From contig NZ_LT629690.1 in assembly GCF_900102185.1 (NCBI RefSeq), positions 744,001-808,000 on the forward strand: a DNA stretch of 64,000 nucleotides, given 5' to 3'. Shown one piece after another: positions 9,517-46,156 of the stretch. The position numbers were made by a program, and so were the translations under genes. The stretch is from Terriglobus roseus. Lineage in GTDB: Bacteria; Acidobacteriota; Terriglobia; Terriglobales; Acidobacteriaceae. Each line of letters begins with the position of its first letter. The stretch's first letter is position 1. Under the pieces are notes generated by a model. The model was not told the DNA's origin and did not search any database. It saw nothing but the letters and a program-made list of their open reading frames with translations.

Positions 9517-10080
9517 TTAGAGTAACTGCGCGCGGATGGCCGCTACGGTCTGCTCGATGGACAGATTCTCCGTGACGATGCGGTGTGACGAGCAGCGGAT
9601 GTAGTGCGGGATGCGGCGCTGAAAGCGCTTTGCGGCAGCATCGGGGTCCTGCAGATTCGGGCGGACAGCGGCACCTTCCTGCAACACGCAGCGGTCGAAG
9701 AGTACGGCGAAGGGTGCATCGAGGAAGACGACGGTGGTGTTAGGGGTCTGTTCCAGCAGGAGGCGATTGGTGATCTCTTCCGGTGCTCCTCCGCCGAGGG
9801 CGATGACGGTGTTGCGAGCGCCCAGGCTACGTGCGATGGCAGCGGATTCGCGGCGTCGGAATTCGGCTTCGCCGTGTGTGGCGAAGATCTCTTCGATGGT
9901 GGTGCCGGAGTGGCGCTCGATCAGTGAATCGACGTCGAGGAAGTTCCAGCCCAGATTGGCGGCGAGGAGGCGGCCTACGGTGCTTTTGCCCGCACCCATG
10001 AAGCCGGTAAGGACGATGCGTTCGGTAAGGAGGGTGGTGGGCGCTGGGGTCACGGCGGATTCGGCTACGAGCGTTGTCAT
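9517..10080 (-). CDS. aroK: Shikimate kinase
   Basis: Phosphorylates shikimate to shikimate-3-phosphate with ATP in the route to chorismate. The 187-residue protein has a Walker A G-F-M-G-A-G-K-S-T (26-34), the shikimate-binding D-V-D and F-R-R-R-E, L-G-G-G-A-P, and the lid arginine in A-V-R-P. An N-terminal extension of ~18 residues precedes the core. The ATG at 10080 lies 44 bases after an intrinsic terminator preceded by a short aromatic-rich ORF, which suggests attenuation control (see 10125-10309). Neighbours are otherwise unrelated. Confidence 0.93.
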   Translation of the reverse strand: MTTLVAESAVTPAPTTLLTERIVLTGFMGAGKSTVGRLLAANLGWNFLDVDSLIERHSGTTIEEIFATHGEAEFRRRESAAIARSLGARNTVIALGGGAPEEITNRLLLEQTPNTTVVFLDAPFAVLFDRCVLQEGAAVRPNLQDPDAAAKRFQRRIPHYIRCSSHRIVTENLSIEQTVAAIRAQLL

Positions 10081-10124
10081 GATGGTCTCAGGTTTGCGAT
10101 TGGTTGTGTTCCGGAAAAGCGAAA

Positions 10125-10147
10125 GCCGCGACCTTTTGGGTCGCGGC
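10125..10147 (-). terminator. Intrinsic terminator in the aroK leader (candidate attenuator)
   Basis: Read on the minus strand, a perfect 9-bp G+C-rich stem (10147-10139 with 10133-10125, loop CAAAA) is followed by TTTCGCTTTT. It lies 44 bases before the aroK ATG on the same strand. The upstream sigma-factor operon already has its own terminator at 10344-10367, so this one must end a transcript that starts in between. Six bases of the 5' arm (10147-10142) are complementary to 10216-10211 in the leader ORF, a possible antiterminator pairing. Confidence 0.75.
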
Positions 10148-10179
10148 TCAGGAGGATCGAGATTGGTCTTTGGTGTTTC

Positions 10180-10269
10180 TTAGTGTTTCAAGACCGCAGA
10201 ATCCGCCAGGGCCGCGCCTGTAAAGCAGTAGCGGTACCAAAAGGAAGCGGGCTGGGTAAACTGCGTCAT
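10180..10269 (-). CDS. Putative aromatic-amino-acid leader peptide upstream of aroK
   Basis: A 29-codon ORF with ATG at 10269 and TAA at 10180-10182. Codons 9-16 read S-F-W-Y-R-Y-C-F, so five of eight are Phe, Trp or Tyr, and another Phe is at codon 4. All three end products of the shikimate pathway are represented. The ORF ends 32 bases before an intrinsic terminator which itself precedes aroK. A promoter-like pair lies just upstream, leaving a very short 5' leader and only a weak AGAG near the ATG. The arrangement is that of a transcription-attenuation leader peptide. The alternative is chance or a small RNA. Confidence 0.5.
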   Translation of the reverse strand: MTQFTQPASFWYRYCFTGAALADSAVLKH

Positions 10270-10280
10270 CTCTGGTGAGG

Positions 10281-10309
10281 AGCATACACCCGGGGCGGGT
10301 GGTGGGCAA
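10281..10309 (-). promoter_or_regulatory. Promoter for the aroK leader transcript
   Basis: On the minus strand TTGCCC (10309-10304) and TATGCT (10286-10281) are separated by exactly 17 bases. The expected start is about 5 bases before the leader ATG, so the leader mRNA would be almost leaderless. The same TTGCCC -35 appears at 42123. Confidence 0.5.
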
Positions 10310-10343
10310 GCAGTTTGTAAAACTCGTCGGCGGCAAATGAAAA

Positions 10344-10367
10344 GCGGCGTCCCGGTTGGGACGCCGC
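10344..10367 (-). terminator. Terminator of the ECF sigma operon
   Basis: A perfect 10-bp stem (10344-10353 with 10358-10367) with a 4-base loop, followed on the minus strand by TTTTCATTT. It lies 23 bases past the stop of the anti-sigma-like gene. Confidence 0.8.
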
Positions 10368-10389
10368 TGTAGTTCTTTACGAAATCGGT

Positions 10390-10662
10390 TTACTGAATGC
10401 TGTCCTTCGACGTGATTTCCCGCTCAATCTTGCCCCAGAGGTCGGAAGATGGGCCTTCGCCTTCTGGTTCCAACAACATTCGTGCGGTTTCTGCGATGTA
10501 CTCCAAATCGCGGACCAGTTCGGCGGCTTGCGGGCAGTCCCGCAGAATTGCCGCGAAACGCGGATCGGCGCTCAGCTTGCCGCCCTCTGCGCGTTCGAAC
10601 AAATCTGGAAGAGCCTTTTCAAACTCTTCGCAGGTCCAGCGCTTTTCATCATGCTCCGGCAT
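10390..10662 (-). CDS. Small soluble protein coupled to the ECF sigma factor (possible anti-sigma)
   Basis: A 90-residue acidic protein. The start at 10662 shares a base with the sigma-factor stop (TAATG), so the two are translationally coupled. The layout W-T-C-E-E-F-E-K-A-L-P-D-L followed by a helix with R-D-C-P-Q-A-A-E-L-V resembles the zinc-binding anti-sigma (zf-HC2) fold. The His and second Cys of the H-x3-C-x2-C motif are absent and there is no membrane segment. It may be a degenerate soluble anti-sigma factor. The longer frame to 10767 overlaps the sigma gene and is not used. Confidence 0.65.
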   Translation of the reverse strand: MPEHDEKRWTCEEFEKALPDLFERAEGGKLSADPRFAAILRDCPQAAELVRDLEYIAETARMLLEPEGEGPSSDLWGKIEREITSKDSIQ

Positions 10663-11297
10663 TATTTTGACTCCTGCACCAAGGCGGCCTGTTCGTTCTG
10701 CCGCAGAATTTCCCGCAGTTTCAGCCGCGCCTTGTGAAGCTGCGACTTGCTGTTGCCGGTGGAGCATTCCAGCATTCCGGCAATCTCGTTGTGTTCGTAT
10801 CCCTCAACGTCGTGCAGCACAAAGACCAGGCGATATCCCGGAGGCAGTGTTGCTACGGCGCGTTCCAGAGCAACGCGGTCAACGGACCCGGAGAGACGCG
10901 GGTCGCGCGATCCGAAGTCGCGCTTGGGTGCGTCTTCTTCTGAGGGGTTGATGGTCTCTTCCAGAGAGACGAGTTGAAGACCCTTCTTGCGGAGATGCAT
11001 CAGCACCAGATTCACCGTGAGACGGTGTAGCCAGGTGGAGAATGCGCTTTCGCCGCGGAAAGAACCGAGTTTGCGGTAGAGGTGCAGGAAAGCCTCCTGC
11101 GTCATATCCTCTGCCTCAGAAACATTGCCCAGCATACGCAGGCATAGGGTGTACACGCGCCGCTTATGCAGCGCATACAACTTGGAGAAAGCATCCGGGT
11201 CGCCGTTTTTTGCGCGCTCCAGAGCGTCTGCCTCACCAGCGATGGGGGGATTCCGCTTGAAGTGCCCGGCAACCGGGGTCGTATTGTTTTGTGTCAT
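10662..11297 (-). CDS. ECF-type RNA polymerase sigma factor
   Basis: A sigma-70 family factor of the extracytoplasmic-function class, about 211 residues. Region 2 is clear (K-N-G-D-P-D-A-F-S-K-L-Y, then A-E-D-M-T-Q-E-A-F-L-H-L-Y and F-S-T-W-L-H-R-L-T-V-N). Region 4 follows (L-P-P-G-Y-R-L-V-F-V-L-H-D-V-E-G-Y-E-H-N-E-I-A). Between them is a polar linker. ATG 11297 is chosen because an AGGG lies about 8 bases upstream; ATG 11318 and GTG 11339 are in-frame alternatives. The coupled downstream gene is its probable regulator. Its regulon is unknown. Confidence 0.9.
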   Translation of the reverse strand: MTQNNTTPVAGHFKRNPPIAGEADALERAKNGDPDAFSKLYALHKRRVYTLCLRMLGNVSEAEDMTQEAFLHLYRKLGSFRGESAFSTWLHRLTVNLVLMHLRKKGLQLVSLEETINPSEEDAPKRDFGSRDPRLSGSVDRVALERAVATLPPGYRLVFVLHDVEGYEHNEIAGMLECSTGNSKSQLHKARLKLREILRQNEQAALVQESK

Positions 11298-11586
11298 TCC
11301 GTAGCCCTGAACTTCCATTGCAACCCCGGTCTGGCACACCGGTATGGTGAGCCGTCGTTCCTTGAAAGACCTGCAGGCTGTACTCCACCATACAGGACGG
11401 CTCTACGAGCCAAAATTTGCACTGATTCCGATGCGCAAGAGTAGTGGATAGCTTTTTCGGGGTCGAAGGTTGTACGGGACGGGCAAACTATCGGCATTGA
11501 CCTGAGGAAAATAAGGCATATGGAGCGAGGAAGACACTGATGTCCTATGATTTGGAGCGCTCTGAAGGCGTGCGGAGGTGTGCGAT

Positions 11587-46080: not shown

Positions 46081-46156
46081 GGACGCGTAGCTCAACTGGC
46101 AGAGCATTCGACTCTTAATCGACAGGTTGTAGGTTCGATTCCTACCGCGTCCACCA
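46081..46156 (+). tRNA. tRNA-Lys (anticodon CTT)
   Basis: A complete cloverleaf. The acceptor stem pairs GGACGCG (46081-46087) with CGCGTCC (46146-46152), then A and an encoded CCA. The D-arm region reads GCTCAACTGGCAGAGC, the anticodon loop is CTCTTAA and the T arm contains GGTTCGATTCC. Anticodon CTT reads AAG. A/T-richer accessory DNA begins directly downstream, so this gene is a possible integration site, although no second copy of its 3' end and no integrase was found. Confidence 0.95.

Follow-up and report, generated by a model that had tools for sequence, protein, structure and literature searches.

The closest described counterparts of the element reported here are the trpL attenuators of Proteobacteria and Actinobacteria, in which a short ORF with regulatory codons, competing RNA pairings and a terminator likewise precede a biosynthetic gene. 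The available text of PMC1183508 deals with the attenuator in the E. coli trp leader and counts the pheA leader among known attenuators, and that of PMC1262725 deals with the trp leader attenuators of Actinobacteria. A further trp attenuator RNA, rnTrpL of Sinorhizobium meliloti, is leaderless, with its transcript starting at the ATG of the leader ORF, according to the accessible sections of PMC7298713. For the Acidobacteria, the available part of a survey (PMC2965389) reports predicted attenuators, almost none of them with an associated function; the words aroK, shikimate and aromatic are absent from word counts of its main text, as far as the accessible version of that source extends.

Here we present an element ahead of aroK, the shikimate kinase gene, of Terriglobus and related soil bacteria among the Acidobacteriota. 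It differs from trpL in mixing Phe, Tyr and Trp codons in a single run and, in the trp genes examined, in sitting before trpB. Similar F/Y-rich leaders of the Acidobacteriota precede genes for chorismate mutase/prephenate dehydratase, as does the enterobacterial pheA attenuator, with which no sequences were compared; the phylum is a different one, and the element family is found on aroK and trpB as well. The S. meliloti element shares the leaderless start, but it is concerned with Trp only and lies on trpE(G), and the 5' end of the Acidobacteriota transcript is inferred from promoter position. We consider it very probable that the Acidobacteriota element is a ribosome-mediated transcription attenuator sensing how fully the Phe, Tyr and Trp tRNAs are charged, a proposal made without transcript, ribosome or reporter data.

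Layout of the aroK leader locus

The locus lies on the minus strand of a 64,000-nucleotide stretch of the Terriglobus roseus genome, hereafter the window (Table 1). A sequence-only reading of this DNA had proposed an aromatic-amino-acid attenuator in front of aroK, and the parts that it listed are largely in place. These include a promoter-like pair with a 17-nt spacer, a leader ORF of 29 codons with the aromatic run at the codons claimed, as read from the window sequence, a separate terminator for the preceding operon, and an aroK start codon 44 nt past position 10125. Likewise, the complementarity claimed between the leader ORF and the terminator arm is there, segment 2 of the ORF being able to pair with GCCGCG (10147-10142). 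The terminator upstream of aroK is also present, but its helix, put at 9 bp in that reading, has 11 pairs in our terminator scan. The leader region as a whole folds better than its shuffled versions (z -2.28; 4/200 shuffles equally good). The fold additionally contains a hairpin at the leader stop codon, which is perhaps a pause site. Other hairpins were noticed by eye at a similar place in relatives.

Table 1. Parts of the aroK leader region, with positions in the window
Feature	Positions	Strand	Remarks
-35 element TTGCCC	10304..10309	-	TTG, 17-18 nt, TAnnnT in 29/29 aroK leaders
-10 element TATGCT	10281..10286	-	Ends 11 nt upstream of the leader ATG
Leader peptide ORF, MTQFTQPASFWYRYCFTGAALADSAVLKH	10180..10269	-	Aromatic-core ORF also at 28 related aroK loci
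Putative sensor codons 9-16, S-F-W-Y-R-Y-C-F	10222..10245	-	Most frequent core among relatives, F-T/S-Y/F-R/C-Y-W
Segment 1, over the aromatic codons	10226..10234	-	Pairs with segment 2, interrupted in the window
Segment 2, CGCGGC (core GCGGC)	10211..10216	-	Common to the 1:2 hairpin and the antiterminator
Hairpin at leader stop codon, GGTCTT ... AAGACC	10165..10195	-	From the fold
Intrinsic terminator 3:4, GAGCCGCGACC-CAAAA-GGTCGCGGCTT, then T-rich	10123..10149	-	5' arm is segment 3
aroK, shikimate kinase, putative controlled gene	9517..10080	-	Pfam PF01202, E 1.7e-38
Terminator of preceding operon, separating it from the attenuator	10343..10368	-	Terminator scan

Conservation of the leader ahead of aroK

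An aroK protein search of 150 genomes of the window's family matched 146, from which 30 loci were kept, and the best 80 loci from one further collection were joined to these. A rule asking for an ATG-initiated ORF no more than 600 nt upstream, with 4 or more aromatics in a stretch of 9 residues, flagged 34 of the 110 loci, 28 of which were judged to be leaders and six to be chance (L061, L068, L084, L086, L087 and L088). Three leaders were added by eye (L011, L038 and L043) and two loci dropped because their contigs were the same as others (L033 and L051), leaving 29 leaders with the window's included. One locus (L034) offered only 199 nt of upstream sequence, too short to judge, and most of the unflagged loci outside the family were judged by the leader rule alone. 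Since the remaining loci of the 110 went unflagged, the predicted element does not accompany aroK in general.

The 28 related bearers belong to Terriglobus, Granulicella, Edaphobacter and other Acidobacteriota, and conserve the promoter, the leader ORF with its aromatic core, the GyGGC segment and the terminator. The sequence-only reading had suggested an alignment of aroK upstream regions as a check, and in this alignment the ORF, its aromatic codons and the terminator are indeed kept together. The proposal of a transcription attenuator ahead of aroK is thus strongly supported by its conservation in 28 relatives and by the wider family described below, in the absence of expression data. Standing out in the 29-leader alignment are the TTGC of the -35 element, the TAnnnT of the -10 element, the ATG, parts of the TTT and TAY-TGG core, GyGGC and GCCGC. 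The GyGG is found in 30/30 rows of a further alignment (A5), and the C that follows it in all 29 rows with a letter there. A terminator 5' arm with the complementary GCCGC occurs in 28/29 leaders and is missing at that place only in L037. The terminator itself was detected by script in 25/29 leaders and by eye in L007, L011, L032 and L041; those of L007 and L011 are misaligned in alignments A2 and A3, and alignment A4 omits L007, L011, L003 and L042.

Taken alone, the promoter of the window is no more than chance: it matches 8 of 12 consensus positions, and a strict promoter scan of the region returned no site. It is supported because the pattern of TTG, a 17-18 nt spacer and a TAnnnT ending 7-11 nt before the ATG is conserved in all 29 aroK leaders, whereas 4 of the 1586 other ATGs in these loci carry it (a control from which the leader ATGs and 14 ATGs nearby were excluded). 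Just 2/29 of these leaders have AGGA, GGAG or GAGG upstream. The lack of a clear Shine-Dalgarno had been held a weakness of the attenuator proposal, an objection that we reject, since an mRNA made from a promoter so placed would be near-leaderless; the inferred 5' UTR of the leader would be only a few nt long, its 5' end being unmapped. A TANNNT motif about 12 bp ahead of the start is given as a mark of leaderless bacterial genes in the available portion of PMC3160421.

A family of elements on unlinked aromatic biosynthesis genes

A covariance model (R1) built from 25 of the 29 aroK leaders alone found a second match in the window's own genome (G000:C1:4718136-4718302, E 3.4e-9; L143 and L151), which lies between trpF (PF00697) and trpB (TIGR00263, E 6.3e-188) and codes for the peptide MVRSVYFWRFTFRYGATPAAPMEHAL. 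The E-values of 10 of the 12 R1 matches in this genome were 0.15 or worse, and these were set aside. Across the family, R1 at E up to 0.1 matched 221/398 genomes and 43/79 genera. A second model (R2) was trained on 30 leaders taken from several genes; with an E cutoff of 0.01 it matched 162/298 genomes in the order (160 belonging to the family and 2, weakly matched, lying outside it), 37/40 chosen genomes, and 50/396 genomes of the phylum (34 in the family and 16, with weaker matches, outside). By these sequence matches, the putative attenuator of the window is one member of an element family and not an aroK oddity.

Among 20 weak hits that were fetched (E about 1e-7 to 0.01), 12 have an F/Y-rich leader, with runs such as FYFAFTYRFFF, RFYFYFYF and YFYFYYFYLK, ahead of genes for chorismate mutase (aroQ), prephenate dehydratase (pheA) or DAHP synthase. 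Eight of the 12 come from outside the window's family (L249-L252, L255, L256, L258 and L259), and Pfam confirms the gene in six of those (L249, L250, L251, L252, L255 and L258). Whether these looser F/Y forms are homologous to the strong family or convergent upon it remains open. The other eight hits (L253, L254, L257, L260, L261, L266, L267 and L268) show no aromatic leader or matched gene and look like terminator-only matches. At four loci (L195, L249, L256 and L264), a single gene run downstream of the leader seemingly contains chorismate mutase, prephenate dehydratase and DAHP synthase.

Over 107 leaders, the core positions hold F in 83, Y or F in 63, Y or F in 87 and W in 82, with synonymous TAC/TAT changes at these positions; the aromatic codons of leaders beyond the 29 of aroK are partly selected, because those leaders were found with leader-trained models. 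Such a run could in principle act through the peptide that it encodes, in the manner of TnaC, an arrest peptide that reads tryptophan: the leader peptide would then be a nascent-chain arrest peptide reading free aromatic amino acids, rather than a codon-stalling sensor of charging. The core F-T-Y/F-R-Y-W-x-x-V-A-A, conserved among many of the trpB leaders and some of those of DAHP synthase, lends this reading some support. However, the residues between the aromatics vary, Y and F interchange, the ends differ in length and sequence, and the weak hits elsewhere in the phylum carry quite different F/Y runs. Moreover, gaps right after the core, of 1 nt in L047 and 2 nt in L038 (the latter from a metagenome assembly), switch the frame and alter the downstream peptide, yet the GyGGC RNA segment is kept. 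As the genes are biosynthetic, induction driven by their product would also be odd. Hence, we regard an arrest peptide as quite improbable and continue with the codon-stalling attenuator.

In all 113 strong leaders that were checked (model E about 1e-7 or better, sequence duplicates removed), a match to an aromatic gene begins 1-281 bases downstream: aroK in 44, trpB, that of the window's own genome among them, in 34, DAHP synthase in 25 and chorismate mutase in 10. Three of the leaders (L203, L225 and L226) had no match among the first reference genes and were then found to have chorismate mutase downstream. The downstream match is independent evidence of function because the models encode nothing on the downstream gene. 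The loci were those returned by the searches together with picks for second copies or other genera, never chosen by gene; the downstream reference set held aromatic genes only, and the aroK share is inflated by 30 loci that were the top-scoring matches of R1, itself trained on aroK leaders. The same placement bears on the notion that the unit is a stand-alone gene for a small RNA or small protein whose terminator merely happens to lie ahead of aroK. Its own conserved promoter and terminator would suit such a gene, and the released trp attenuator RNA and peptide of S. meliloti act in trans, according to the accessible sections of PMC7298713; nevertheless, with 113/113 strong copies no more than 281 bases from an aromatic biosynthesis gene match, we attach very little credence to it, and a trans role could exist in addition to attenuation.

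None of 4227 Rfam models matched window positions 9900-10500 at E 5 or better, nor 12 related loci at E 0.1 or better, a further difference from trpL. This absence, together with the conservation of the ATG, of the frame through the core and of the aromatic codons, leaves next to no room for a terminator run by a protein, for which TRAP-like proteins are the model, or by a metabolite-binding RNA switch, with the ORF incidental, even though GyGGC, GCCGC and the terminator are very conserved. The sole Rfam match in the window at the gathering score is a tRNA at 46081-46153.

Competing helices and the predicted switch

Returning to the ribosome-mediated attenuator, we compared its pairings in A5, an alignment of 30 leaders whose structure was partly drawn from L006, a bias in its favor. 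The 1:2 hairpin and the 3:4 terminator are together paired in 88.9% of cells, against 33-54% when slid. Their double-changed cells number 26, compared with 6.7 for shuffled alignments, and 0/500 shuffles equaled that count. The terminator helix alone is paired in 93.9% of cells, with 6/11 pairs changed on both sides, and 2 pairs of helix 1:2 are so changed. The 2:3 antiterminator, which overlaps the 5' arm of the terminator and is complementary in register, is paired in 84.5% of cells against 28-47% when slid; its core is nearly invariant, 423/500 shuffles reach its paired percentage, and it displays no covariation. Thus, the compensatory changes for which the sequence-only reading had suggested looking are found in the terminator and, in smaller number, in the 1:2 hairpin, but not in the antiterminator pairing.

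The register of the 1:2 hairpin varies between groups of relatives: it forms an unbroken 10 bp in L006 (CCGCTACTGG/CCAGTAGCGG) and in L007 (CCGCTATTGG/CCAATAGCGG) and is interrupted in the window. RNAalifold predicted the terminator, and not this hairpin, from the aroK-only alignment A3, and the hairpin in part from A5; a short stem that it gave in A3 was not trusted.

For calculations of the switch, 107 of 129 distinct leaders could be placed, and the 22 unplaceable ones were excluded. Pairing of segment 2 with upstream sequence stands at 0.54 and falls to 0.14 when the upstream part is shuffled; the shuffling raises 2:3 from 0.33 to 0.80, and the upstream pairing of segment 2 is greater in the real than in the shuffled sequence in 89/107 leaders. 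A 28-nt mask over the aromatic codons shifts the balance toward the antiterminator by a mean of 4.7-6.8 kcal/mol, and with the best of three mask positions the shift exceeds 1 kcal/mol in 105/107 leaders. A control mask downstream of segment 2, placed at one position as against these three, does so in 29/107 leaders, with a mean of 0.9 kcal/mol the opposite way. Even with the mask, the terminator keeps an average stability advantage of 4.9-9.6 kcal/mol over the antiterminator, so timing must matter. Segment 2 is released much less by a stall placed exactly on the W codon (mean P 0.43 versus 0.82-0.91).

Codon-by-codon scans of five leaders gave varied pictures. The antiterminator of L004 fares best with the A site on TTT ACC TAC CGC TAC TGG and worst after passage, and most of the aromatic run is favorable in L049. 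Help in L006 comes from the first three codons of the run, TTT-ACC-TAC, only, and early codons are equally good. No clear optimum was seen in the scans of the window leader (L002) and of L003. Masking brings no gain for the antiterminator in the window leader, the best shift being positive, and merely -0.6 kcal/mol in L003. Before segment 4 is made, 2:3 is favored in the window leader even when unmasked. As modeled, the switch in the window's own leader is weak or absent.

Based on these features, we propose that RNA polymerase would initiate a few nt ahead of the leader ATG and that a ribosome would begin on the near-leaderless mRNA. When the aromatic aminoacyl-tRNAs are all plentiful, the ribosome would clear the F/W/Y run and segment 1 would pair with segment 2 behind it, leaving segment 3 free for segment 4, such that transcription would end before aroK. 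Conversely, when one aromatic aminoacyl-tRNA is scarce, the ribosome would stall on the run and cover segment 1, whereupon the GCGGC of segment 2 could pair with the GCCGC of segment 3, no terminator would form and aroK would be transcribed. The comparison of sequences indicates that the promoter, ORF core, segments and terminator are conserved, that 1:2 and 3:4 covary and that strong copies are confined to aromatic genes; translation, stalling, termination, read-through and the sufficiency of one amino acid are inferred.

Origin and significance of the family

The kind of mechanism is ordinary, classical ribosome-mediated attenuation. The new features are the phylum, the mixing of Phe, Tyr and Trp codons in one run, a near-leaderless ORF and the presence of one shared element on unlinked genes. 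We found no description of the aroK element in open-licence PMC articles among the matches listed, and an earlier description elsewhere is possible. Predicted attenuators of the Acidobacteria have been nearly without an assigned function, judging from the available part of PMC2965389, and the present family offers a concrete case with a testable signal.

The family covers the first step of the pathway (DAHP synthase), its middle (shikimate kinase) and both branches (chorismate mutase/pheA and trpB). We lean slightly toward the view that a homologous attenuator cassette was copied between unlinked aromatic genes across the Acidobacteriota, with the Phe/Tyr form on DAHP synthase and aroQ-pheA probably the older and the Trp forms recruited later; the latter recruitment would have been to aroK and trpB in the Terriglobus/Granulicella/Edaphobacter group. 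If this is true, several pathway steps respond to the charging state of three tRNAs. For asking how mixed regulatory codons combine, a single leader polling three amino acids is a natural test case, and its near-leaderless ORF is a chance to test coupling without a Shine-Dalgarno.

Gene neighborhood upstream of aroK

The operon preceding the attenuator in the window consists of an ECF sigma gene and a small gene (10390-11339); the latter, which has no Pfam or NCBIfam match, perhaps codes for an anti-sigma factor. In several of the loci without the attenuator, a similar small gene was seen by eye directly upstream of aroK.
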